From Branchiostoma floridae (Eukaryota; Chordata; Leptocardii; Amphioxiformes; Branchiostomatidae): DNA of 64,000 nt. Location: NCBI RefSeq assembly GCF_000003815.2, contig NC_049984.1:12455186-12519185 (forward strand), written 5' to 3'. Of the stretch, positions 26,165 through 63,205 are shown piece by piece (the stretch's first letter is position 1; every line of letters starts with the position of its first letter). Made by a program: the position numbers and the translations under genes. Under the pieces are notes generated by a model. It searched no databases. It had not been told where the DNA came from and saw nothing but the letters and a program-made list of their open reading frames with translations.

Positions 26165-26890
26165 TTAACATTGCTGTAGCTGTCCATGGTGCTGATTACG
26201 CCATGCAGGCATTGCTAAACCTGTTCGTGGTGTTGATTAACAACAAAATGAACATTGCTGTCTCTGCCCATGGTGCTGAATACCATCAATGTGACTATTG
26301 TTTTCTCTAACCATAGTGCTGAATGTCGGTCATGTGACCAATGTTGTCCCCGTCCAAAGTGCTAAATCTCAGTCATGTGACAATTTCTGTCCCTTTCCGT
26401 GGTGCTGATTGACAGCCATGTAATCAATGTTGTTCCTGTCCTTGGTGCTGTATGACAGCCAATTCAACGATGCTGTCCCTGTCCATACATCTGAATGACA
26501 GTCATGTTACTGCTGCTTTCCCTGTCCGTATTGCTGAATGACAGTCATGTGACCAAAGCTGTCCCTGTCCATATTGCCGACTGCCAGCCATGTTACCACT
26601 GCTGTCGCTGTCCATGGTGCTGAAGGACAGTTATGTTACCGCCGCTGTCCCTGACAGTGGCGGTGATTAACAGCCATGTTACCACTGCTGTCCCCGTCCA
26701 TATTGCTGAATGACAGTCATGTAACCACTGCTGTCCCTGTCCATGGTGCTGAATGTCAGCCATCTTTTCCGCTGCTGTCCCCGTCAATATTGCTGAATGA
26801 CAGTCATGTAACCGCTGCTGTCCCTGTCCATGGTGCTGAATGACAGCCATGTTACCACTGCTGTCCCTGTCCGTATTGTTGAATAGTGAT
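26165..26890. repeat. Degenerate 43-bp minisatellite
   Basis: About 17 tandem units with a consensus containing GCTGTCCCTGTCCATGGTGC and TGAATGACAGCCATGTTACC. Units are best conserved in the right half (26570-26880) and progressively diverged and length-variable to the left. That is the usual pattern for an array whose older edge is decaying. Open frames through it are a by-product of the repeat. Confidence 0.85.
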
Positions 26891-27858: not shown

Positions 27859-27979
27859 TCGCACTGTGCGAAAGGGTGTGATTTCCGGACAAAGTCGGAG
27901 TTGACATATTTTTGGACATGCTAGATATTCGGACTGTGTCCGGGCACGATGTTCAATATTTCCCATATCTGGAAATATC

Positions 27980-28900
27980 ATGAGTCAGGAATTGTCTTGT
28001 TATGTATCCGGACAAATAAGACTTTCCTGCTTTTCAAGATACGCGCCATCGACGTTTCTTGCCTCCGAATACGTGATATGTTCTACATTCTTTACATATC
28101 CAAGGTCCATATATTTCGATAAGGAATACCCGGACAAATTAGGAGTTTGCACGAAGCATGATGTGCATTATTTCTGGGCCATTGTCAGATGACATTTTCA
28201 ATTCATTATGTCTCAGAATATCATGAGTCATGAAATGTTTCAGCACATGCCCGGACGGATAGAATTTCCCGTTCTTCCGAATACGTGTCAGGGACGTTTC
28301 ATGTTTTCGAATTCATACTATTTTCTTTTCTTTCCATTTACGAGACATAACCGCGACAGATATTCCATGGATTAGTTTTAGGACAGATTCGAAGTTAGCA
28401 TATTCTGACCGTTACCGATAAAGGTATTCTATACGTGAATTGTGAATCGGTGATTGTTTTATTGCGCATCTGAACAAATAAGACTGCATTTTTTTGCCGA
28501 AATTTTCGCTCCTTCCGAATTCATATTCCGTTCCATTTACGACAGATGTCCAAAACAGAAACATTCCAGAGATCAGTTTTCGGACAACTTAATGGTTAAC
28601 AAATTACTTTTCTTGTCATACATGAATCTGAGATTGTTTTGTTGGGTATCCTTAAAAAGGTTTCCTATTTTGTCAAATTCACGTCATTAACGTTTTTGCT
28701 TCTGTATATGTGTTTTTATTCTACAACGAGTATGGCCGATGTCAATGTATGTTTACTCTTTAATTTTCTGGTAATTGAAGCTTAAGCTTCCATATACATG
28801 TGCAAATATACTGACATCGACATTTACAATCAAATGACACAGAAAGCAATCTTTGCGATGGTAACAATTATGAGTCAAGTATTATTGTTTCTTTGCATAT
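27980..28900. repeat. Degenerate subterminal repeat, roughly 200-250 bp period
   Basis: Related segments start near 27980, 28222, 28440, 28620 and 28868. They share words such as ATCATGAGTCA, a TGTTTTGTT-like run, CCGGACAAATAAGA and CCTTCCGAAT. Spacing varies and similarity is low, so this is an old, decaying tandem array inside the transposon's left arm. Confidence 0.5.
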
Positions 28901-29630
28901 CCCGACAATATCTTGAACAAAGTTCAGTCAAAACACTCCACCCCAGCGGTGCAGTTTGGGATAGGTCCATATCCGGACAATATCTTGAACAAAGTTCAGT
29001 CAAAACACTCCACCCCAGCGGTGCAGTTTGGGATAGGTCCATATCCGGACAATATCATGAATAAAGTTCAGTCAAAACACTCCACCCCAGCGGTGCAGTT
29101 TGGGATAGGTCCATATCCGGACAATATCATGAATAAAGTTCAGTCAAAACACTCCACCCCAGCGGTGCAGTTTGGGATAGGTCCATATCCGGACAATATC
29201 TTGAACAAAGTTCAGTCAAAACACTCCACCCCAGCGGTGCAGTTTGGGATAGGTCCATATCCGGACAATATCTTGAAAAAGTTCAGTCAAAACACTCCAC
29301 CCCAGCGGCGCAGTTTGGGATAGGTCCATATCCGGACAATATCATGAATAAAGTTCAGTCAAAACACACCACCCCAGCGGTGCAGTTTGGGATAGGTCCA
29401 TATCCGGACAATATCTTGAACAAAGTTCAGTCAAAACACTCCACCCCAGCGGTGCAGTTTGAGATAGGTCCATATCCGGACAATATCTTGAAAAAGTTCA
29501 ATCAAAACACTCCACACCAGCGGTGCAGTTTGGGAAAGGTCCATATCCGGACAATATCATGACAAAAAGTCACTCATGATATTGAATACCAGCGTTGCTG
29601 TGTGGGAATGGCCCATATCCGGACAATATC
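28901..29630. repeat. 72-bp minisatellite
   Basis: Ten tandem units start with the GTTCAGTCAAAACACTCCAC word at 28923 and repeat at 72-bp steps (28995, 29067 and so on). The first five are almost identical. Two later units lack one base (TTGAAAAAGTTC), and the last two diverge. The unit ends in CCATATCCGGACAATATC, the same word used in the degenerate subterminal repeats to the left, so the array grew from a subterminal repeat. A 136-codon frame (28913-29323) is open only because 72 is divisible by three, and the one-base deletions break it. Confidence 0.93.
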
Positions 29631-29632
29631 AC

Positions 29633-29789
29633 GAGGCAACTTTACTCGTAAAGCGGTTATGCAAGCTGTGCAAAGTGCCGAGCAGACCAGTACGTTGGCA
29701 TGTCAACGGTGCGCCTACTGGGGCAGTCGTTGCAGATAACAGCCTACACCGTGCCACAGCGTTTGCTGCTGTGTACAACATTGAAACTG
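29633..29789 (+). other. Possible exon inside the transposon
   Basis: GC content rises here, the segment follows an AG at its left edge and it ends in a strong donor (CTG then GTAAGT). Two frames stay open to the donor over the right two thirds. One gives ...WHVNGAPTGAVVADNSLHR... with a phase-1 exit. The other gives ...AKCRADQYVGMSTVRLLG... with a phase-0 exit. I recognise no family. It could be a captured host exon or part of a degenerate transposon gene. Confidence 0.25.
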
Positions 29790-30581
29790 GTAAGTACATG
29801 ATGCATTTATTCACAAAAATAATGCACAATGCCATTGTGTTTCCGTGAAACAGGCATGATGGATGACACTAACTTGCTTGGAACCATCTGGAGGAGTCCT
29901 TAGGAAACAAGACTATATTAGGAAGTCACATGACTTGACTAGACCAATAGTAGACCAGCTGGTGACAGCAGTTAGGTTTGAAACTAGATTTGAATCTCCG
30001 CTGCCGCTAATCGCTACCGGACCAAGAAGTGAGTAGTGTAGCTCTCTAGTACATAGATTGTATATACATAGCAGTTACCGTTCTTAGTTCCGTATATGTC
30101 TGTCAGCAATGTCTGTTATCCCTTCCTAGTGTTTTGTGTATTTAATAATTAGTAGTGTGATCTCTTTGTAAAGATTGTTGTATGATAGATCACTTCTCTT
30201 TCAGCTGGAACCCCCGGCTTGTGTCATCCCCGGCTTGTTTACAAATTGCCCGTTCCATAGTTAGTTAAATTCTCATATTATTTTGTGCTGTATGTGCCGT
30301 AACGGCTGCTTCTAAACTTTCCTGTCCTGTTGTTTTGGCTGGCTAAATCTTTAATGGAACCAAGGAGAAACTGTAATCTCCTCACTAGGACCAATGTGAT
30401 TGTGTGCATATAAAATTCCATTCGTTCTCTGGGGGTCCTTATCTGTGCCATCTGTGTGGCCCGCACCCTTTGATGATAGCCGACTCCAGATTCCTGCCTT
30501 TGTCCCCGTCTTGTCCTGCTGTGATTTTTATGGCCGTGTTGTTTGAATAATTTCAATGTATCGTTCATGGGTTCGGGGCAG

Positions 30582-31334
30582 GTGGTGCCTATCTACCTTC
30601 CCAGAATGCATCAATACACATCCAACAATACACACCCCAGATGGCTTACTGTGGCCCACAATCATATGGATTTCTTATGTTACCTTTCAAAATACAGCAT
30701 CTAGTATAATATTATCAGCAAATCTTTATTTTCTTTAATTGTCAACAGACTCAAATGGTCCATGAGAATGTCGATTTTTGTTACTTTTGTACAACACTTA
30801 ATAATTTGTTTGATAAACATTAATGCAAAGATTCATGTTAAAAATTGTTCCCAAACTTCACCAAATAGCAGTGTTTTTCTCAAAACAGCATTAATTGATG
30901 ATGCTATACTACTTGCGCATCGGAAAAACACAAAAGCACTAAAAAGCACTCATGGGAAAGTAAAGAAAAAGAAATTTGATATATTGTTTTTGTAATAANN
31001 NNNNNNNNNNNNNNNNNNNNNNNNNNNNNNNNNNNNNNNNNNNNNNNNNNNNNNNNNNNNNNNNNNNNNNNNNNNNNNNNNNNNNNNNNNNNNNNNNNTT
31101 ATCACACAATTTATAAAGTTGTAGGCAAGTAACAAAGATCAAGACGTTCTCATGGACTAATTGAGTCTGTTGACAATTCAAAAATTTACAAATATACTGA
31201 TAATATTGTACTAGATGCTGTATTTTGAAAGGTAACATAAGAAATCCATATGATTGTGGGCCACAGTAAGCCATCTGAGGTGTGAATTGTTGGATGTGTA
31301 TTGATGCATTCTGGGAAGGTAGATATTCACCACT
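30582..31334. mobile_element. Nested fold-back element with long inverted arms
   Basis: Arms of about 235 bp (30582-30820 and about 31099-31334) are inverted copies at high identity, both ending in GTGGTGnnTATCTACCTTCC at the outer side. The 14-bp string TGGGTTCGGGGCAG lies directly outside both ends (30568-30581 and 31335-31348), consistent with a target duplication. The core is AT-rich and holds a 100-base assembly gap, probably caused by the fold-back itself. It inserted into the older CACTA-like element. Confidence 0.85.
30999..31098. other. Assembly gap (100 N)
   Basis: Run of 100 N in the centre of the fold-back element. Confidence 0.99.
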
Positions 31335-31454
31335 TGGGTTCGGGGCAGTTACTAGCCGTTTTTTTTCCATTCCAGCCGCTGAGCCTCTGTTTCCCAATCG
31401 CCTGTCCTGCCATGCCGACGACCGAGGCCTACCTCCTGGTAACACTTACGACAG

Positions 31455-31703
31455 TCTGTGCCTGGTGCCCTTGTATACTGCCAGAACTGTTTCTACTCTG
31501 AAGACGGACGGTGCCTGGACTATGCAATGGAGCGGACTGTCCTCGAGACGTGCCGTCGATATTGCGGGGTCTTGCCAGAGCATCTTCCGTCGCCAATGAT
31601 CGTCCACTACCACAAAGACGCAGAAGAGGGCGCCCCGGACGATGATTCCACAGTCAACACGATACGGACTTATAGAGGACTTGAAAATGGACTGTCGTAC
31701 TGA
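31455..31703 (+). CDS. Possible terminal exon of an unknown gene, inside the transposon
   Basis: After an acceptor (CTTACGACAG), one frame is open to a TGA at 31701-31703 and gives about 82 residues. It starts SVPGALVYCQNCFYSEDGR, continues with a Cys-containing stretch (TCRRYCG) and ends in an acidic, Asp/Glu-rich tail. Codon composition looks coding: many GAC, GAG and CTG, and GC-rich against AT-rich surroundings. A second candidate acceptor (CTGCCAG) lies at 31487, and the overlapping frame 31282-31599 is also open. I recognise no family. It could be the last exon of a captured host gene or of a transposon gene, with 29633-29789 as a possible upstream exon. The boundaries are uncertain. 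Confidence 0.35.
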   Translation, partial: SVPGALVYCQNCFYSEDGRCLDYAMERTVLETCRRYCGVLPEHLPSPMIVHYHKDAEEGAPDDDSTVNTIRTYRGLENGLSY

Positions 31704-32263
31704 TTTCGTAATGACATTTTTATCCTACGAATATTGATTGTATGGTTTATAACGTTAGACTTGTGTCGGATACTGCACATTTGATATTGTACATTTAAAC
31801 TGATCAGTATTGTTATGATGTTATTGACTTGGGCTTGATATTATTGGATCTGACAGTGAACTGTTTAACTTTGGCTTCATTCGAGCTTCACTTTTTGTGA
31901 AGACCAATGAGGTTGTAGTGAGCTAAAACTTCCTTGGTAAGACTAAGAGACAAATGCATATTGATTTGCCCCTTGACGTTAACATGATCTGTTCCTCCAC
32001 ATAATGTATTTGTTGTGATACTTGTGTCATCTGATTTATACAGGAAAGTCTTTGAAAAGCTTTCACAAAATGTAGCCTTACCGAGTTAGCATTTTCGGGG
32101 TTAAAACGGACAGGAAACGTTAAATATTAGGTATTTAGCATGATCGTAAAGTTACTGGATATTCTGAAATAATGTGTTGTATTGTTCCTATGATGTTTCA
32201 GTATATCTTAAGTTTATGCAACCTTTCCGGGGCGTAATAGCCCCGAACGCGCTCAGAAAATAT

Positions 32264-32640
32264 GAAATATTCGGAACGTGTTTTGTCTCCAAAGAGTCCT
32301 AGAACGTTCCATTACTTGAAATCCGGATATGCGACATGATTATATGGTCCCATTCTTGACTCCTGAAATTATCCGGATTAATACGAAATATTCGGAACGT
32401 GATTTGTATCCAAAGAGTCCGAACACGTTCCATTACTGGAAATCCGGATATGAGACGTATACGTAATTATTTGGTCCCGTTCCGGACTTCTGAAATTATC
32501 CGGATATATACGAAATATTCGGAACGTGGTTTGTCTCCAAAGAGTCCGAAAACGTTCCATTACTGGAAATCCGGATATGAGGCAGGAATTAAATGGTCCC
32601 GTTCCGGACTCCTGAAATTTTCCGAAAACGCAGGGGAGTC
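32264..32640. repeat. Subterminal tandem repeat, 121-127 bp unit
   Basis: Three units begin with GAAATATTCGGAACGTG at 32264, 32385 and 32512. Each contains CCAAAGAGTCC, CGTTCCATTACT, AATCCGGATATG and TGGTCCC. This is the right-hand subterminal array of the CACTA-like element. It shares the CCGGATAT word with the left array, in opposite orientation. Confidence 0.88.
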
Positions 32641-32748
32641 ATGTCAGATTTCGTACGGATATTGTCCGGATATATCCAGAAACGGTCCCGATCCGGATGT
32701 ATACAAACAAAGAAACGTCCGGAAATGACACCCTTTCGCACAGTGTCG

Positions 32749-47378: not shown

Positions 47379-50300
47379 ATGGGACAAGCTAATATGGATC
47401 AGCCCGCCCTTGGCGTGATGCTATATAAAGCCTACCCTGTGTCGAGGGAAGATAAAATGGACCCTCTGATAGCAGAGCACAGTGTAGCGGTGTTGGACAA
47501 ACTGCGTCAGCACAGACAAAATGGACTCTTCACAGATGTCACACTCACCGTGGGGAAAACTGTCTTCCCGGCACACAGGTGAGGTGTGAATTAATGAACT
47601 GTAATGCTCGACAGTCGTACAATGTATGGCAAGAACTGACGATTAAAGCAACAACAATAGAAGTCTTATCTGCCCTGCATTTAGAACTACAAAATATCAT
47701 CAATAACAGTAACGTTANNNNNNNNNNNNNNNNNNNNNNNNNNNNNNNNNNNNNNNNNNNNNNNNNNNNNNNNNNNNNNNNNNNNNNNNNNNNNNNNNNN
47801 NNNNNNNNNNNNNNNNNTCAAACCGACCCGGCAACAGCACAGAGTACCAGCCTCTGTCTCTGCCCTATTGTGCTATGACCATATCATGAGATTTTCCCCA
47901 TAAAGGCACAAACACCCTGAAACAGTAAACAGCCTTCTGTCTAGCCTTGTTAGCACATACAAGCCCATCTCGTAGAGCCTGTTAAAGAGACTACCATGTG
48001 GCTACGTAATGGATAGCGTCTGTTGACAACGGACATGGTGTTCGGAAAGACACGCTCGGTGCAGATAGCAGTTTGCTGTTATGATGAATAAAATGTGATG
48101 ACGACACAGCTGGGTTTTCTTGCCGTGAAAGGTCCATTTTTCGTACCCTGCAGCTGTTGTGTGATAACTCATTGTGTTGTTTTACTGTGCTTTTGCGTGT
48201 ATTCAGTTAGCATGAACGTATCAGAATAAAGCATTTCTGTTTTGAAACAATTTGGATACAAACGCCATGCGTAAAGCCATGCTGAGTCAGTCATATCGTT
48301 GCCATGGAATGAAATGACACAGCTTGAAGGACACAGACGTAGAAAGGTGCACCTTTACAGTGCAGCGTAAACAATGTGAAATGCAGGAATTAACACATTG
48401 CTGACATGGAAAAGAATCTATATGTACAGTATATACAAAAAGCATTCTCGGCTCACGCTATCCAGGACCCCCTATTAAAATTCTGAATTAAAAAAAACAT
48501 TGAACAAAACTATTCACTGTCTTCGTGCTCATTGATCAGACCTTTTTGGTGAATGTCTAGTGGTTATACTCCGCACTGCAACTAGGTGTCGCTGCTGCAG
48601 TGTGAGCAATGTTATCCTCCCTTATGACGGACCATATGATGATGTTTTATACATAACACAACGGTCTGCATGTAACGTTAACTTTCTAAACACACACTTA
48701 TCATAAGTGTTTAGAAAGTTATATACAGACCGTTGTTTGTGAAGTCTCCCTCCTTACATACTTCTGTTCCCAGGAACGTCCTGTCTGCATCCTGCCCGTA
48801 CTTCGAGGCGCTGTTCTCGTCCCAGATGTCGGAGAGTCGGTCTGACAACATCCCCATAACCTTCACCAGTCCACAGGCCATGGAGGCCATCCTGGACTAT
48901 CTGTACATAGGTAGAATCGAGGTACGGTTGCATCTATCTAAAACTCTGTTGAAGCTCTGCCCGGCTGGAATTGGCATACTAGTACTTGAAGTTCTGTGTA
49001 AAGGTGCTAAGTCTGCTTCGGTCACATTCGTGCTGCGATCTCCGACCGAAAACGTTCCTGAGTCAGTTGTGCACTTGTGTCGCACAAAATTCATCTGACT
49101 CGTCACTGGAATATGTTGTTTTAGATTCACGTCGGCAGTTGGTTCTGTCGCAGCCTGCTTGAAAATTCTACGGCATCAAAATCGTACGACGTACTGCAAC
49201 CAAGGTGCTGCAACGAATGTGACTGCACTGTTATACGTCAAATATATTTATATCTAGACTTCCATTGATACAGTAGTGTGCATAGTACCCTAGACCTACA
49301 AATAGCCCAGCATAGACTCCCTTCAGAAATTCCTCTATCAAATTTTGTTTTGAATGAAATCCCAAATTGTCTGACCAAGAGATCGGTCAAGATCATTGTA
49401 CATACCTGCCCATTTTGAAAATACAGTTGGAGAGACTTAATCTATCGCACATGTCATAAAATATCATAAAATAAACACAGAAACAGTCAGTCTAAAGAGG
49501 CGAGGTAAAAAAAAATCTGTGTCCCTCAGGTCGCGCCTGACAATGTTGAGGAGGTGTTGATGGCCGCCGACCAGCTCCTGCTAACTAACCTGAAAAACAT
49601 CTGCTCGGAGTTCCTGCAGCAGAACCTGACCATCAAAGACTGCCTGTACATCAAGGTGCTGGCAGATCTGTACGGTCTGGAGGAACTCTTCCAGAGGGCC
49701 AGCAAGTTTATACAGGTAAAGAGTGCTCCTGAAACATTGCATGAAATGTGGCATATTTCAGTCGCAGCAGGTAGAAAACTGCATTCTATCATGAAAATAC
49801 CCCACAAAGTTGATAGGAATAAGAACATTTTTGTAACAGTAGGTTGTGAAGAGAAACAGTCGTTATTCATTTCCGTTAGAACATGTGAAATAAAATGATG
49901 TGAAATACATGTATATAGATTTTGTGAAAACAGAAGGCTACCTTGCAAGCGCAAGCTAGCTCATGCCCGAAGGACTTGGTCTTGGGAAACATACCGGTGG
50001 AAGAGACATGCATATAGGAACAGTGATTGACATCAACGTACTAAGACAAATAGATTTTCATACAAAAAAACTTCGTCTAAATGAAAACAAATCACTTTAC
50101 CCCATGTAGGACTATTTTGACGCAGTGATCTGTAATGACGACATGATGTTAGCCTCTTTCGAAACCATTCTGGAGCTAATCTCAGACGACAAGGCGCGGG
50201 TCCTTAAGGAGGAGTCTGTGTTCGAGACTATCGTCAGATGGACGGAGTACGACCTGACCAACAGGAAAGAGTACTTTCCCAAACTGATGGGCCAGGTATG

Positions 50301-53300
50301 TACAATGTTTGCGCTGAAGTCCAGTTATGAATGGCAACACAAATTGCTCAATACAAAACCCACATTCCTCATCCTAATATTGAGTACTTTCAGGAATCTT
50401 ACATGCAGGTTGAATAAGTATGGAATTCGTGATAATGTTCTAATAATGCAGATCATTTCATATTGCTATTTTTTTAGAAGAATCTCATTTTTACAACAAT
50501 GGAACGTATCGCCTACTTTTCACTGGAGGCTGCATGAGACCACTGAGCGACCAATCGTTCGTCGAATTTCATAGATAAAGTACGGTTTCTTTACGGTTTT
50601 AGTTTGATAAGTTGTCTTTTACACAGTACTTTTACATCTTGCACCATATTCAAATCATGAAATCGAGTGCCAGTTAAATTCGATTTTGTTTGCAGCATGT
50701 ACAGCAGTTACTCAGCAATCAGTCTAGTCAAACGGAGTCCTAAGCGTACTCATTCTTGGAGGTAACATCGCTACTTCAGTGACTACACCAAGTTTTTCTG
50801 TGCTGTTCTCCTATTCTCAGGTCCGACTGGTTCAGCTGGATGAGAAGTACCTGCTGGAGACGGTACAGAACCACCCCCTGGTGAAGGACTGTAAGGAGTG
50901 TAAGGAGTATCTGTACGAACTCATGAGGTCTTACGTCATGTCAGAGGTACGTACTATCATCTTCCACTTACTTTAGAACACTTGGCACCTCACATCTTGA
51001 CACATCATCATCATCTTGACACAGAGGAATTAAGATTATTATTTCTTGCTTGTTTGTTTGAAGACGAAGACGGGTGTTTCGACTGCAGAATTAACGTTTG
51101 CTCCTGCTTATCAGCGCAAATATGTTTATCTGTTCCTTTTTTTGATCGATTTGCTTTGATTGTATTTATCGTCGTTTCGTTTCCAGATCGACCCCAAAAC
51201 AGAGATGTCCGGCAGTGTCCGCCTGAAACCTCGCCAAGGTCGCCTGACCAAGGTCGTATTGACGGTGGGAGGGGAGTCAGCGGAAGGCAAGGACTCCGTC
51301 AACCTTTCAGTCCCATTGCTATAACATCAGCACCATGAAAAGCGACAATATTATTTTTTCCACAAATGATGGTCGGGTTGTCAGTGAACGGTGTGGCCAA
51401 AGTCTACTAACGAAAGTTTGTCGAAAGATGCCTTTCGATCAAAACAGTCCGTATCCGCCTCGACAGACACTCATTTTGAACCGTATAGGTCCCAAAACGA
51501 AGATTTTTTAAATCTCATTTTGTGGAATATGTATAAGCGTACATTGTAGTGTGAGCCAACGATTGAATGGTACAGGCAAGTTTGTACCCCATCTACGAGA
51601 TTTTAAAAAGTTTGTTGGGTGTATCCCGTGTATCATATACAATTGTCCTAAGTATTTCTGAGGTCTATGTGACTAGTTGACTAACATTAAGCACGTTTGA
51701 ACCTCCAGGTTCTATGAAGACAGTGAACGGGTTTGTTATTGATGAGAACCGCTGGGTGGCGCTGCCGGACCTGCCGATGCCTGTGTTCGGCCACGCCATC
51801 GCCCTGCTGGACGGGTGTGCGTACGTCGTCGGCGGGACCTGTGCACGATCTGTCTACAAGTAAGACACTTACCACATGTTAAATCTGTCATTTTAAGCCT
51901 ATAACAATATAGCTTCATCAATTTCATGTCATGAAATCAGACGGACGGGGTCAAGTTTAATTGCGCGTCCCAACAAGCACCTCGTGACAGAAGGACGGGT
52001 CGTAGAGACTGCCGTTGTCTCGATGTCCACGTGATTATCTATTAAAGACTAATAGCCCACAAATTGTTACAACAAGCGGAGGTTAGTGATTCTAAACAGC
52101 CTATTCAAAATGCAGAGTATATTGATGAATGCCCACGTTCCCGCACGTTTTTCTTAATGACATATTGATTTCGATTTTTTATCGTATACCGGATAAGCAT
52201 TTTCAATAGCGAAATGTTTTTTAAGTCACCAGTTTATTAGTCTCATATTGTTGTCACCACATATCCCATATAGATACGACCCACTGAACAACTGCTGGTC
52301 CTCCGTAGCTGAGATGAACATCCCTCGCCTACTGCTGTCCGTAGCGGTCTGCGACAGACAGCTGTATGCAATAGGTGAACTTATGGTCAAATAACCAAGC
52401 CGGCACCCGGTCGGGCAGTTTGCTGGAACGAAGAATGATATAAAAGACAACGAAGCACATAAAATATGATATATACTCTAGTTTTCCGTTCTGGCAAACA
52501 GCCCGACCGGACCCATTTGGATATGTGACCTCAGTACCACTCTTCTAAAAAATATTGCTAGGGCATGTAACGTAATATGATGTTGATTACATCGACAGCA
52601 ATGGTTTCCATTTTCTATGTTGATGTTGAGTTTCAGGTCGCACCCCATGGTTTGACACCCCTATCTGTGTACGTATCATAAAGGTGTGGGAACGTTTGAA
52701 CATAGGCTTGTCAGGGGCATGGTTTACCACAAGGTTTGCCAGGCGTATTGGAACATAGGGTTGTCGGAACATTATGCTGTCCCCGTTTTCACAGGTGGTT
52801 GTATCTCCTCGGAGATGTTTCTGGACTCCGTGGAGGTGTATGACCCGCAGGAGGATGATTGGCAGCTGATCGCCAGCATGCAGACCCCCCGCTGTCTCAC
52901 ACAGTGTGTGGCCAGGGACGAGAGGCACATCTACACTGTCAGTGGATGGAGGGGCGGGACCAACATCAGTAATGCCTTAGAGAGGTGACGTTATAAAGTT
53001 TATGAAAAAATTAATATCATTAGTATTGAAGACCGAGAAGGTTGATTCTCAAACTGTCAATCAAAATTATCTGTTCAATCAACTCTCCTTAGTTCAACCA
53101 ATGAGTGATTGGCAATTAGTGGTTCGACAAATGAGACAGTGGCAGCATGTCCGTCAAACATCAACAACTTTATGTTTTGTTTTGCATTTCTACGTTCTGA
53201 CGTTGGTGGACGGGACCACGTGACCGGTGATCAACGATTTATTGCCAAATTTGCGCAATTCTTCCTGTAGACTATTCAGCATTTTAGTCCAGCAATCGTT

Positions 53301-56539: not shown

Positions 56540-59446
56540 CTAAGTAATGCGCTCATTACTTTGCAGTGATTCTGAAAGAATGCTCCTGATTGTTTCTAGT
56601 GTCTTTGCGGATGCCTCGTGTGATTGGTTGTCACTCTCAGATAACGGTCCCACACATTCCTGCAGGGCTTTGTTCAGGCGATCTGCAATGGCGGCAGGAG
56701 GAGACCGTAACAGACCGCCGTACGGGGGGCCGTGTTCCCTGTGGCCTACAAATATCTTCTTGCAGATGGCCTGGATGAAGAGAGGATTTAGATTTTAGAA
56801 AAGTTTCGCAAAAAAGAAATGCCTCAGGGGCAAGCCTATTGGTATACTATTGTTACAAATACATGTAATTTTTGGCTGCTGCCCCAGTAGCTGCAATACT
56901 AAACTAATTCAACAGGAGTCTCTGCTGAGCAGGAAGAACGAGTGCTTGAAGAGAGCTTCATGGTTTGTATAATAGGGCATGAAATAAACACCACACATGG
57001 TCCCAAAGTTGTTTGCAGATGTAAAAAGAATCCTGTTTCCAAGCAAGTTGGTTTAGGGCATATAATTGGGCAGAGTCAACTGAAAAAAAAAGACATACAT
57101 GTATATGCTAGGCTAACCATAGGCTACCCATCTGCTTGGAGATGAGGACATTTAAAGGTAATATACTGCTAGTCTATTCATGCTTAGTGTTCATTTTTCA
57201 ATAACATACATCTGAAATTAGTAATTGAATCTACAATTGAAGATCACGTGACTGACTGCACTATGAACTGACCTGTAAATTGTTGTTTGACCTGTATTTT
57301 GAACATCTCCTATGTCTTAGGTCACACGAAGACTCGCAATGGACAAACTCACAGTCCTCATTTTTTGTGCAGCTCTTTTGTCCCAGAATTGCCTGCATTT
57401 TGGTCTCAAAAAATGCTGTATCTACATCTATCGCTTGTATGGTGAAGTCCGCTGATACGCCGTAGTTTTCATGCTTGACATCGCACAGATGAAGTGGTTC
57501 AGTATACAAAGTATTCAAATCTTCCAAGAATGTTAGGAAGCCAAGTGCAACATTTGCACGCTTGTTCCAGTCTGGTGTTGAAGTAAGTTCTACCGGTAGG
57601 CCTGTTTTGAAGAAAACCAACGGTGGGCTGAGTGTGTCACCAGGTGGGGTATACTCCATGACATACATATGTCCACAAGAGCCATAAATCTTTGGAAAAT
57701 GCTTGTTTCCTTGAAAGTATTGCATCATGAGGTATTCATCCTGCTGTAACAGTGCCCACAGGCTCTCCATAGCTGCTGTACTCATTGTCTCATGATCTTC
57801 CCATGGCATTTGCCACATTTTTTTTACAATTTCCGTTCTGGTGATATCTGGCGTATCCACAACAAAAATTGTTCGTAGCTGATTTTGAACCAGCATTAGA
57901 AAAGTTGCCATGTCTGGCAGTGAGGTGACCATTTTACCTTCATCCTTCATGTATTCTGGCATCAGTGATTTGTAGTCCTGTAGATGACTGTATCTGGATT
58001 TGAGTATGACTTTGTGTGCGTTCCACTCGGCAAGCATGACCCTTTTCCTGTCTTTCTTGTTGTTGAGACATTCCCTATAGATGATTGAATGTGTGGTGCA
58101 CAAATCTGGGCATAGGTTCCCTGTAACCTTGTTGCTGGTGTACTCTTCACACTGTCGATATGAAAAAAAATAGTTCCTTCTGAAAATGGCCTTTTAGTTT
58201 TAATTACTTTTAATTGCCTTTTCTGCTTCTTTCTCACTAATTTAATTTGTTACAATACTATGCTCTCATACTTTGATGTTGTCTTCCTGAGTGTGATGCT
58301 TGTGCCAAAGATTGTTCAACAGTATAATTACAGTTTTGACAAGAAATAGAAGATCTCGTACCTCTGTGAAATATTTCTTCAATGTCATAATTACCCAAAG
58401 CATCACAGATGTTACTAGTAATGATGAAGAGAACATTGGCCTGAAAATACAAATCCATCAAAAGGATGCAAAAGTTATTGGTGCCAACACACACATACGT
58501 ACGACCAAGCACAGCACCATTTCAAAGGTGAACCGTTATTCTCAAAGGTAAAATCCTTGAAAGATCACCCTGCAAAGGTATTTATCAATCTATGATTGAT
58601 AAAGTCAAGCCAACTCTCTACAGAATACTGTAAGGCACACATAGCGAGCTTTATAGAAGGAAATGTACTTAAAGGTAAACTTTCTGGGCTGGACTCATCC
58701 TAAAAGTTTTAAGTTTAGAATAGATTAATATGAATCATATTGTAAACATTGTATTTAAGATAGCCGAACACAGTATTTATCTGCGAACCCCGGGCCCATG
58801 ACGCGGGTACATAAAGTCAGATACATTTGTTGAAGGAGAGGTAAAAACCTTATTTGCGGGGCATCCAGATGTAACCTGTACTGCGTGGTTTGGATTGCGA
58901 AAGTTTTTACTTCATGTAAAAATGCGCCCCATTACGCAACTGCCCTTCTACTGTGGGCCGGCTGCAGTTATGTGACCTTCAATGTGGGCATGAGAGGGCT
59001 ATGCGCCGACAGGATTTTGTTGTTTTTCAATATTTTGTGGCTTGTACCCTGAACTCGAACATATCCGTTTTTGGTAATTCTGAAGTGCACCCTACTATAT
59101 TTTTTTCTGCGTCGAAGTAAGTCACCTTGAGGCCCTTAACTATAGAATCCCCATGGGCTGAAAACTGTGTTCTGCTACCTTAAGTTTAACAGTGTTTGAG
59201 CAGCGGTGCCCCCCTCCCCCTTGCAAAGTCAAAGAACGTTATCAAGTATACATCAAAGAGTAAATAACACAACTGCATATGTCTATGGCACCATACCAGT
59301 TTAAGTAGTGTAGTTCTCGCCTCCTGATCTGAACAGCTTTGCGATTTAAACTTCCTGGCCACATACAGAACTGCGACTAAGAGAAGCGAAACCAAAAGTC
59401 CTGCGAACAAAAACTTGCGTCGCTTCCGGGGTTGCCATCGCGCCAT
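56540..59446 (-). CDS. DIPK1/FAM69-like type II membrane pseudokinase
   Basis: Three coding exons join in phase 0: 59297-59446, 57273-58151 and 56540-56770 (stop TAG). The total is 419 aa, the length typical of FAM69 family proteins. The start is the ATG at 59446 (MARWQPRKRRKF). Basic residues precede one hydrophobic anchor (residues 11-30), as in the ER-resident type II FAM69 proteins. A Cys-rich luminal segment follows (C38, C51 and the NLCPDLC word). The kinase-like domain has a hinge-like MYVMEY (212-217), a catalytic-loop-like CDVKHENYG (273-281) and AIDVD (290-294) in the place of DFG. A second Cys cluster lies at about 311-333, and a helical C-terminal exon ends the protein. Family members (DIPK1A-C) are poorly understood secretory-pathway kinases or pseudokinases. 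I cannot choose among paralogues. Reading through exon 2 would give an early stop at 57261, but CAG/GTCAGT there is a strong donor. Confidence 0.9.
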
Positions 59447-59913: not shown

Positions 59914-60423
59914 TGGAACCGAGTGCTGAAAACAATGGTCGAATCGGCCTCAGCACTCGGCGCCCAGTGCTGAAGAATGTTCAGCACTCGTTTTCCAGTG
60001 CTGATCGGCCTTTCTCCAGTGCTGAAGCTCCCTCAGCACTCGTTTTCCAGTGCTGAAAAGACGTCAGCACTCGTTTTCCAGTGCTGAAAAGACGTTTTCC
60101 AGTGCTGAATGTTCGTCAGCACTCGGCTCCAGTGCTGAACTCGCGGCCCAGGCGGCGACGGGTCAGGTCAAAGGTCACTCAGCACTGGTTACCCAGTGCT
60201 GAAACCGCCGTCAGCACTGGAACCGAGTGCTGATATACAAAAGCTTCGCCTTCCGCACTCGATTTTCCAGTGTTTAGGGGCACTTCAGCACTGGAACACC
60301 AGTGGTGAGAAATCTTCAGCACAGGAAAACGAGTGCTGACATCTTTTCAGCACTGGAACGTTCTTGAAACCAGTGCCGAAGTCTTTCGAGCACTGGTGTG
60401 CTGGAGTGTCCTAGTGCTGAGAG
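59914..60423. repeat. Left array of TCAGCACTSG hairpins
   Basis: About 12 units of the type TCAGCACTCG-TTTT-CCAGTGCTGA. Each is a self-complementary 24-26 bp palindrome with a 3-6 base tip, separated by 2-20 bp of unrelated sequence. Some are half-units. Tips and spacers vary, but the arms are nearly invariant. Confidence 0.9.
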
Positions 60424-61005
60424 CGGTACTTGACGTAATTATTACTGATTAAAAATAAAGTTAAACTTTTGGTTGTGCTATTCAATTTAATGTGTAACTT
60501 GGTGTATGTATAGAGTATAGATACAAAGTACTGAAAGCGGTACAATATACGATACTAATAAAGATGATTTTTCAAGTTTATGCAGTTTTAGCTGGTGTGT
60601 TACGCCAAACGGCGGTTATACCGGCTATATAACGTAAGATAGATACAGATGCAAAAAAGCCTGAATTTGTGTTGTTTTGTGTAATTGAAATGTATAAGGA
60701 ATGGATATCATTAGAACGGGATTGCAAACAACTTCATTACTATTACCGCCCACGTAAAGAAAGCATCACGACGATCGCGAGTATTTTCCATTATCCCCGA
60801 AGGTAATCGACAAATGAACACTGTTATAGAGTTATAGAGGTGTTATAGAGCAGAATGTAACGATAGGTGACGTTTATAATCCAGCAATCTTCCGTTTTAG
60901 TCGAGCAAGGACGTTATATAACGTCCTTGAGTCGAGCAAAGGACGTGTCGTAACTCCAAATTTATAATACTGTATACTAGTATGTCAGAGTCTAGTCTCC
61001 CGCTC

Positions 61006-61228
61006 TCTCAGCACTCGGTTTCCAGTGCTGAAGCCGGCGTTTCCAGTGCTGAGAGCGTCAGCACTCAGTTTCCAGTGCTGACGAACATTCAGCACTCGGT
61101 TTCCAGTGCTGAAGCCGGCGTCTCCAGTGCTGAGAGCGCGTCAGCACTGGTTTTCCAGTGCTGACGAACATTCAGCACTCGGTTTCCAGTGCTGAAGCCA
61201 TCTTCAGCACTGGTTTCCAGTGCTGAAA
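61006..61228. repeat. Right array of TCAGCACTSG hairpins
   Basis: Six full palindromes and two half-units of the same type as the left array. A segment containing CAGCACTCGGTTTCCAGTGC followed by TGAAGCCGGCGT is duplicated within it. Confidence 0.9.
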
Positions 61229-61535: not shown

Positions 61536-63205
61536 GGGGCCCAAAATGGCATTTTTGCAAAGGCGCGGACCTGCGGAAAGTTTTCGGGGTCCAAAAATGA
61601 AATTTCCCCAGACCGGCCGACATGGCCCGTTTTGGGCCCAAAATGGCATTTTAGCAAAGGCGCGGACCTGCGGAAAGTTTTTGGGGTCCAAAAATGAAAT
61701 TTCCCCACATCGCCCCGAATGGCCCGTTTCGGGCCCAAAATGGCATTTTTGCAAAGGCGCGGACCTGTCGAACATTTTTGGGGTCCAAAAATGAAATTTC
61801 CCCAGACCGGCCGACATGGCCCGTTTTGGGCCCAAAATGGCATTTTTGCAAAGGCGCGGACCTGTCGAACATTTTTGGGGTCCAAAAATGAAATTTTCCC
61901 AGATCGACCGACATGGCCCGTTTCGGGCCCAAAATGGCATTTTTGCAAAGGCGCGGACCTGCGGAAAGTTTTCGGGGTCCAAAAATGAAATTTCCCCAGA
62001 CCGGCCGACATGGCCCGTTTTGGGCCCAAAATGGCATTTTAGCAAAGGCGCGGACCTGCGGAAAGTTTTTGGGGTCCAAAAATGAAATTTCCCCACATCG
62101 CCCCGAATGGCCCGTTTCGGGCCCAAAATGGCATTTTTGCAAAGTGCGCGGACCTGTCGAACATTTTTGGGGTCCAAAAATGAAATTTCCCCAGACCGGC
62201 CGACATGGCCCGTTTTGGGCCCAAAATGGCATTTTTGCAAAGGCGCGGACCTGTCGAACATTTTTGGGGTCCAAAAATGAAATTTTCCCAGATTGACCGA
62301 CATGGCCCGTTTCGGGCCCAAAATGACATTTTTGCAAAGGCGCGGACCTGCGGAAAGTTTTTCGGGTCCAAAAATGAAATTTCCCCACATCGCCCCGAAT
62401 GGCCCGTTTCGGGCCCAAAATGGCATTTTTGCAAAGGCGCGGACCTGCGGAAAGTTTTTGGGGTCCAAAAATGAAATTTCCCCACATCGCCCCGAATGGC
62501 CCGTTTCGGGCCCAAAATGGCATTTTTGCAAAGGCGCGGACCTGTCGAACATTTTTGGGGTCCAAAAATGAAATTTTCCCAGATCGACCGACATGGCCCG
62601 TTTCGGGCCCAAAATGGCATCTTTGCAAAGGCGCGGACCTGCGGAAAGTTTTTGGGGTCCAAAAATGAAATTTCCCCNNNNNNNNNNNNNNNNNNNNNNN
62701 NNNNNNNNNNNNNNNNNNNNNNNNNNNNNNNNNNNNNNNNNNNNNNNNNNNNNNNNNNNNNNNNNNNNNNNNNNNNNGTTTTGGGGCCAAAATGGCATTT
62801 TGCAAGGCGCGGACTGCGGAAAGTATTGGGGTCCAAAAATGAAATTCCCCAGATCGATCGACATGGCCCGTTTCGGGCCAAAATGGCATTTTTGCAAAGG
62901 CGCGGACCTGCGGAAAGTTTTTCGGGTCCAAAAATGAAATTTCCCCACATCGCCCCGAATCGCCCGTTTTGGGCCCAAAATGGCATTTTTGCAAAGGCGC
63001 GGACCTGCGGAAAGTTTTCGGGGTCCAAAAATGAAATTTTCCCAGATCGACCGACATGGCCCGTTTCGGGCCCAAAATGGCATTTTTGCAAAGGCGCGGA
63101 CCTGCGGAAAGTTTTCGGGGTCCAAAAATGAAATTTTCCCACATCGCCCCGAATGGCCCGTTTCGGGCCCAAAATGGCATTCAAAGGGTCCAAAAAATGA
63201 AATTG
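61536..63205. repeat. 97-bp satellite with higher-order structure
   Basis: About 17 head-to-tail 97-bp units are marked by GGGCCCAAAATGGCATTTTT and GCAAAGGCGCGGACCTG, with a 100-base gap at 62678-62777. Units differ at diagnostic sites (GCGGAAAG or GTCGAACA; CAGACCGGCCGACATGG, CACATCGCCCCGAATGG or CAGATCGACCGACATGG). The first eight run A-B-C-D-A-B-C-D, a 388-bp higher-order repeat, with one inserted base in the second C. Later units follow a less regular order. All three minus frames are stop-free for over 1.4 kb, but 97 is not a multiple of three, so each frame cycles through the same peptide set. I regard them as non-coding. Confidence 0.93.
62678..62777. other. Assembly gap (100 N)
   Basis: Run of 100 N inside the satellite, likely a collapsed array. 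The units just right of it have several single-base losses. Confidence 0.99.

Follow-up and report, generated by a model that had tools for sequence, protein, structure and literature searches.

A complete non-autonomous CACTA/EnSpm-type transposon of Branchiostoma floridae and its larger coding relatives, which carry a Dbf4-like second gene

INTRODUCTION

In the maize En/Spm transposon, the transposase TNPD and a second protein, TNPA, are both needed, and they can act in trans on defective copies; TNPA binds subterminal repeats, and TNPA-like proteins may be unrelated from one element to the next (PMC2613891; this source, as well as PMC12730594, PMC1636069, and PMC3087553, is cited throughout for the excerpts of it that were available). 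Here, we describe a complete element of the CACTA/EnSpm type at positions 27862 to 32745 of a 64,000-nucleotide stretch of the genome of the amphioxus Branchiostoma floridae (assembly GCF_000003815.2, contig NC_049984.1, positions 12,455,186 to 12,519,185 of the forward strand; from here on, "the window"). The element itself is an ordinary non-autonomous CACTA element, and this assignment is well supported. Its larger coding relatives, which would provide an animal counterpart of the two-protein En/Spm system, matter more than the window element: their second protein is similar to the regulatory subunit of the origin-firing kinase, and a Dbf4-like second gene in coding CACTA elements appears to be new.

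The amphioxus elements resemble maize En/Spm and soybean Tgmt* in having CACT- termini, subterminal repeats, and a tnp2-type transposase (PMC2613891). As in these two systems, a second DNA-binding function would act alongside the transposase, and defective copies would be driven in trans. With Tgmt*, they also have in common a 3-bp duplication and a large coding element, which is 20.5 kb in Tgmt* (PMC2613891). They differ from both plant elements, as far as the excerpts describe these, in the CACTG ends of the window family, in a second protein that is Dbf4-like and comes from a separate gene in the opposite orientation, and in a third, acidic gene near the right end. Among animal CACTA elements, SmTRC1 and its relatives likewise have a Transposase_21 domain; however, a 2-bp duplication is described for 7 of 14 SmTRC1 copies, in contrast to the 3 bp found here, and the excerpts on SmTRC1 mention no Dbf4-like gene (PMC1636069). 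Fungal EnSpm elements with TET/JBP genes have the same CAC..GTG ends, 3-bp duplications, and CMC signature and also carry an extra gene, but there the extra gene encodes a TET/JBP dioxygenase (PMC12730594). As in human DBF4 (PDB 4f99 chain B), motif M is followed by motif C (zf-DBF) in the amphioxus second protein, which, unlike human DBF4, is encoded in a transposon and is probably RFX-like in its N-terminal part. Among the matches listed by a literature search, with Repbase, Dfam, and most subscription journals outside its scope, there was no report that links Dbf4 or zf-DBF to these transposons, and among the matches listed for CACTA/EnSpm elements in amphioxus or Branchiostoma, none describes these elements by title.

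RESULTS AND DISCUSSION

The window holds a complete member of a family with about 70 copies

The limits of the element and its target duplication are as follows.

27862..32745, plus strand: complete non-autonomous CACTA/EnSpm-type element, 4884 bp including a nested insert and a gap
27859..27861, no strand: target site duplication TCG, left, read from the sequence
32746..32748, no strand: target site duplication TCG, right, read from the sequence
27862..27890, plus strand: terminal inverted repeat, left (inverted-repeat search)
32717..32745, minus strand: terminal inverted repeat, right (inverted-repeat search)

The two inverted arms are 29 nt each, are 97% complementary, and are separated by 4826 nt. 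An earlier note on this DNA had placed a complete CACTA/EnSpm-like element with an exact TCG target duplication here, and both its coordinates and its termini are exact. The termini are 5'-CAC..GTG-3' inverted repeats, which together with 3-bp duplications define the EnSpm class in PMC12730594. The label CACTA, which the note had also used, holds for the hallmarks of the superfamily and fails for the terminal pentamer: the literal CACTA is absent, and the ends are CACTG in the copies printed out. The terminal CACTGTG is the reverse complement of the heptamer of the recombination signal sequence (RSS). A RAG/Transib origin was ruled out by the 3-bp duplications and by the Transposase_21 transposase of the relatives described below.

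When the genome (513,431,437 bases in 431 contigs) was searched with the terminal 17-mer and at most 1 mismatch, 139 sites (70 plus 69) were found, and the reversed control gave 0 plus 0; thus, the window family has about 70 copies, and 2 of the 139 sites belong to the coding element on C9 (see below). Eighteen other whole copies are 3.6 to 5.0 kb long. A perfect 3-bp duplication was present at 35 of 40 pairs of ends, i.e., at the window element, at all 18 of these whole copies, at 0 of 1 for a 9.9-kb copy on C17, and at 16 of 20 pairs sampled at their ends only. Among the duplications of the 19 whole copies, we counted 16 different triplets. The 450-bp flanks of the same 19 copies yielded 0 of 171 similar pairs on the left and 0 of 171 on the right, and similarity therefore stops at the ends. 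The earlier note had expected a genuine element to occur as several copies that share their ends and have different duplications, and this is what the genome contains; neither a similarity that runs past the ends nor a lack of further copies, either of which would have spoken against the element, was observed. The average divergence among 16 of the 19 copies, taken over the interior and 3' end, is 1.26% (L036, L039, and L050 were excluded because they have no anchor), which suggests that the family is young and has moved recently. The 9.9-kb copy (L037/L038, C17:7817280-7827150) is flanked by tgt and tat and contains a 5.6-kb insert with frames that look repetitive; it was excluded from the set of whole copies, from unit and word counts, and from the divergence and flank comparisons.

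Between its repeat-rich ends, the element has the following interior.

29631..32257, plus strand: interior without a recognized transposase frame or DNA similarity to the C9 element, broken by the nested insert

Four interior frames of copy L034 matched no Pfam family at cut-off, and 79 peptides (at least 30 aa) of this copy, compared with 15 transposase loci, gave a best E value of 0.005 over 44 aa. At the DNA level, the window family matched the C9 element in the ends and repeat units only, and not in the interior. Since no transposase coding was recognized inside, the family is taken as non-autonomous; the Pfam, peptide, and DNA comparisons thus bear out the note, in which the absence of a transposase had been pointed out. 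Derivation of the interior from the C9 element by deletion was also considered and rejected, because there is no DNA similarity and the best 30 protein-level rows all lie in the ends. The interior may also be a captured gene: by eye, exon-like stretches with GTAAGT and pyrimidine-AG signals can be seen at 29631-31710, but no Pfam family was matched at cut-off.

Two larger relatives encode a CMC-type transposase between similar ends

A profile search for Transposase_21 gave 28 rows in the genome, one of which (C9:888372) lies between facing window-type ends at C9:864157 and C9:897720. This stretch, C9:864157-897720, is 33,564 bp long and has AAG on both flanks. In the orientation of the window, its similarity to the window family is 66-82% at the left end and 67-92% at the right end, and the 29-bp terminus is nearly identical between the two. 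A second coding element, C17:5344764-5368546, which was analyzed from parts of its sequence, is 23,783 bp long and has GTA on both flanks. Its left end, found by reading outwards, is CACTGCGCGAAAGGGGTC; it is similar to the window end (69% over 132 bp) and holds 243-bp repeats containing TCCGGA, and the right end is at 5368546. Six further end pairs, 4.5-9.8 kb apart, represent shorter copies of the C17 family, and perfect 3-bp duplications are present at 6 of 7 end pairs, C17 itself included. With the C17 end pattern, a right end was located on C235, and no left end was located there with the same pattern. A Transposase_21 (tnp2) gene between such ends is therefore found in both the C9 and the C17 element, and the longer copy with an EnSpm/CMC transposase, for which the earlier note had advised a search, exists in a 33.6-kb form on C9 and a 23.8-kb form on C17.

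The transposase gene, the second gene, and a third gene for an acidic protein are arranged identically in the two elements, both in order and in orientation. The Dbf4-like frame starts 3.2-3.3 kb from the left end, the transposase is oriented opposite to it, and the distance between the third gene and the right end is 1.5-1.7 kb. The acidic gene has 33 rows in the genome, of which 10 are within 30 kb of a transposase row and the other 23 are not near one; those 10 include loci without zf-DBF on C1, C6, C11, and C15 (16.6 Mb). Many rows of this gene, several with stops, are found on C6 at 19.7-27.2 Mb and on C165.

Compound arrangements of two elements are possible, and the 33.6-kb and 23.8-kb stretches could in principle be host segments between two separate elements. 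We find this hardly credible, given that each stretch has one left and one right end facing each other with an identical 3-bp duplication and that the three genes are common to both and lie about equally far from the ends.

The C17 transposase frame comprises 884 aa without a stop. In an alignment of five transposases (C17, C323, two C5 loci, and C6; C9 was not included), residues D255, D345, C364/C367, H577/H581, and E601 are invariant in all five. A DDE with C(2)C and H(3-4)H between the second D and the E corresponds to the CMC transposase signature as given in PMC12730594, and it is from this signature that we infer which D and E residues would be catalytic.

The earlier note had proposed a non-autonomous family driven in trans, and the larger coding relatives with the same kind of ends support this. 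Very probably, the window element is a non-autonomous CACTA/EnSpm transposon that moved by cut-and-paste with proteins supplied in trans by these relatives.

The second protein of the coding relatives is Dbf4-like

The reading in the earlier note did not include a Dbf4-like second gene, and the coding relatives carry one. zf-DBF has seven matches in the genome, and six of these are located at 3.2-4.9 kb from a transposase row; for a random zf-DBF match, the chance of lying within 5 kb of such a row is about 5e-4. The seventh match, on C15 at 12.3 Mb and 4.3 Mb from a transposase row, is probably a host gene. Transposase frames and identities point to at least three families among the six loci (C9; C17 and C235; C323, C9:16.2 Mb, and C15:2.97 Mb), so that these loci do not represent six independent events.

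The frame of the second gene in C9 comprises 394 aa and contains a DBF zinc finger (E value of 4e-16 for a 225-aa piece and 8.7e-16 for the whole frame), and its product shares 47% identity with that of the C17 second gene. Motif C is present in three proteins, in which zf-DBF (PF07535) was detected above cut-off with E values of 8.7e-16, 6.8e-14, and 3.9e-14. The best match in the PDB was human DBF4 (4f99 chain B; E value of 1.4e-9), the crystal partner of which is presumably CDC7, and the next-ranking DBF4 chains, which we take to be of yeast type, had an E value of 3e-4. Residues 278-306, which we take to be motif M, precede motif C at 333-378 in the order known from human DBF4, and the invariant columns of the alignment of second proteins (A1) fall in both motifs. 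By itself, motif M is weak (12.6 bits, i-Evalue of 0.57), and the Pfam family Dfp1_Him1_M matched one of three proteins with an E value of 0.026, below cut-off. In the middle part (motif N), BRCT (PF00533) gave a weak match in two of four members, with a best E value of 0.0025.

RFX (PF02257, a DNA-binding winged helix) matched two of three members, including a relative on C11, with a best E value of 5.1e-7. The C11 relative was reached by both the RFX family search and the search with the second protein, and a profile that includes it matched only RFX5 (0.0032) and RFX1 (0.23) in the PDB. The N-terminal part of the C17 protein alone had no PDB match up to an E value of 10. An RFX-like N-terminal part in the second protein is thus likely, not proven. 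On C11, the frame L125 (C11:11963120-11964020) is of RFX type, its middle part is related to the transposon protein, and no Transposase_21 row lies nearby; this frame may be either an old transposon gene or a domesticated one.

The ratio of nonsynonymous to synonymous differences per site (pN/pS) is 0.53 between the C9 and C17 second genes (bootstrap 0.45-0.61) and 0.52-0.59 over three between-family comparisons that include C323, with silent sites near or at saturation; in this set, the C9 transposase is represented by its first frame only and the C323 second protein by its 268-aa frame only. These ratios indicate that the second gene is kept by purifying selection. The zinc finger of the transposon protein is identical to that of the likely host DBF4 at 18/39, 20/39, and 18/38 positions and to the human one at 18/38, 16/38, and 19/37 positions; being about equally far from both, it speaks for an old acquisition of the gene.

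Gene capture by plant transposons is known, and the Dbf4-like gene could be a captured passenger without a role in transposition, which would fit with the 22 of 28 transposase rows that have no zf-DBF match nearby. We consider this improbable in view of the same place and orientation of the gene in C9 and C17, where the encoded proteins have retained 47% identity, the six transposase-linked zf-DBF loci, and the between-family pN/pS of 0.52-0.59.

TCCGGA words are concentrated in the subterminal regions

The repeat-rich regions of the window element are as follows.

27862..28895, plus strand: 5' subterminal block with CCGGA/TCCGG words (word counts; comparison with the C9 relative)
28896..29630, plus strand: array of 72-bp units, nearly all with TCCGGA, 10.2 copies
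32258..32624, plus strand: 3' subterminal array of three 121-127 bp units rich in TCCGGA

Subterminal repeated motifs, a characteristic of CACTA/EnSpm elements, are thus present, and 22 of the 29 TCCGGA occurrences in the window lie inside the 4.9-kb element. We compared the counts of CCGGA/TCCGG words with those in 300 dinucleotide shuffles of each piece. The 5' 1034 bp have 7 words versus a shuffled mean of 1.1 (maximum 5), the 72-bp array 20 versus 1.3 (maximum 5), the 3' 514 bp 20 versus 2.3 (maximum 9), and the interior minus the nested insert 3 versus 1.7 (maximum 6). Of the dense subterminal CCGGA repeats reported in the earlier note, the enrichment at both ends is therefore upheld, but the density is patchy, with 0 words in bases 401-800 of the element.

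The minisatellite sits between the 5' block and the interior, and its 72-bp unit is built on CATATCCGGACAATATC. The number of units, by motif count, ranges from 4 to 15 across 19 copies (11 in the window copy). About 3 of these units also occur in the C9 coding relative, and the left end of this 33.6-kb relative shows 66-82% similarity to the 5' block of copy L034. When seven end segments from the three families (window, C9, and C17) are pooled, TCCGGA is the top-scoring word; segment by segment, it comes first in four and second in one. It occurs at 7-25 per kb in six of the seven segments and at 1.9 per kb in the first kb of the window family, and its background in the remainder of the window is 0.12 per kb. 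We considered whether the 72-bp array is an amphioxus "mirage," and this was not shown; mirages span exon-intron borders (PMC3087553). A further array, of 14.6 units of 43 bp, is located about 1 kb to the left of the element (26256-26884).

How the elements would move

In the mechanism that we propose, the transposase would cut at the CACTG ends, and the 3-bp duplications would be made on insertion. The Dbf4-like protein would have the role of TNPA in maize En/Spm, i.e., it would bind the TCCGGA subterminal repeats, probably contacting them through its RFX-like part, and bring the two ends of the element together. That the second protein is a TNPA-like partner binding these repeats we infer by analogy with the plant system. 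Because motifs M and C are both retained, the protein may perhaps also bind CDC7 kinase through them and so recruit it. The wider reading, in which an animal CACTA lineage adopted a Dbf4 protein, joined to an RFX-like DNA-binding domain, as its second transposition protein, binding TCCGGA ends and recruiting CDC7 and thereby tying transposition to origin firing or S phase, is tentative and rather doubtful. Should it be true, this tie would favor copy gain at jumps from replicated to unreplicated DNA, which would bear on how cut-and-paste elements increase in number, and a CDC7 that is still bound would make a direct and testable link between a transposon and the replication switch of the cell.

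The second protein could also be only a DNA-binding TNPA-like factor, with a Dbf4 fold that has been retained because it contacts DNA or protein at the ends and that no longer touches CDC7. The DNA-binding proteins of plant CACTA elements are diverse and mutually unrelated (PMC2613891), and an RFX-like part would be enough for DNA binding; however, motifs M and C are both retained in order, with invariant columns in each. We regard this alternative as a serious contender, if short of probable.

Several observations weigh against the proposed mechanism or against C9-type elements as the source of the proteins. In this assembly, the C9 transposase is broken up into overlapping frames, while C17 has a single one, and the C9 copy in its present form is therefore probably inactive. 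Since its ends differ by 8-34%, the C9 element is, on this comparison, not the direct parent of the window family, and the window interior is not derived from it. Five of the 40 pairs of ends have no perfect duplication. TCCGGA ranks 30th of 668 words in the first kilobase of the window family and 12th of 129 words in 147 bp of the C17 right end. With regard to the second protein, the N-terminal 80 residues of the C17 member match RFX with an E value of 0.13, below cut-off, and the C9 member had no RFX match in the three-member scan; the profile of the BRCT-like part gave E values of 0.18 or worse against the PDB, with chance matches leading.

The differences of 8-34% at the C9 ends, the unrelated interior, and the broken transposase frame would also fit with mobilization of the window family by another transposase, now lost or unrecognized, rather than by C9-type elements. 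Against this, the 29-bp terminus is nearly identical, both subterminal blocks and the 72-bp units are common to the C9 element, and, apart from the C9 row, inspection by eye of the 100 of 139 sites listed revealed no transposase row between facing window-type ends. Another transposase is therefore unlikely, and we favor mobilization in trans by the larger coding relatives.

A nested insert and other features of the window

The interior of the window element is interrupted as follows.

30582..31334, no strand: nested insert, belonging to a different family with long inverted repeats and including a 100-N gap at 30999-31098
30568..30581, no strand: 14-bp duplication TGGGTTCGGGGCAG, left of the nested insert
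31335..31348, no strand: 14-bp duplication, right of the nested insert

As computed, the arms of the nested insert are at 30579-30772 and 31143-31336. All 18 other copies compared lack the insert, and a genome search with its arm gave 41 match rows; it therefore came later than the element. The earlier note had read the window copy as intact; this does not hold, as the insert and the 100-N assembly gap inside it had been overlooked. Elsewhere, facing arms of the family of the insert span about 826 bp, for instance at C4:19369990-19370815, and a 14-bp duplication is unusual for a DNA element.

tRNA and Rfam scans of the window returned 0 tRNAs and 0 Rfam families. BTB and kelch gene pieces, together with a FAM69 kinase-type frame, are found at 48715-52988 and 57261-58193. 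Arrays built on CAGCACT / CCAGTGCTGA words in both orientations occupy 59948-61226, and the region 61537-63181 holds two more arrays, in which a 97-bp unit is present in 11.8 and 4.2 copies, with Ns inside the arrays or separating them.

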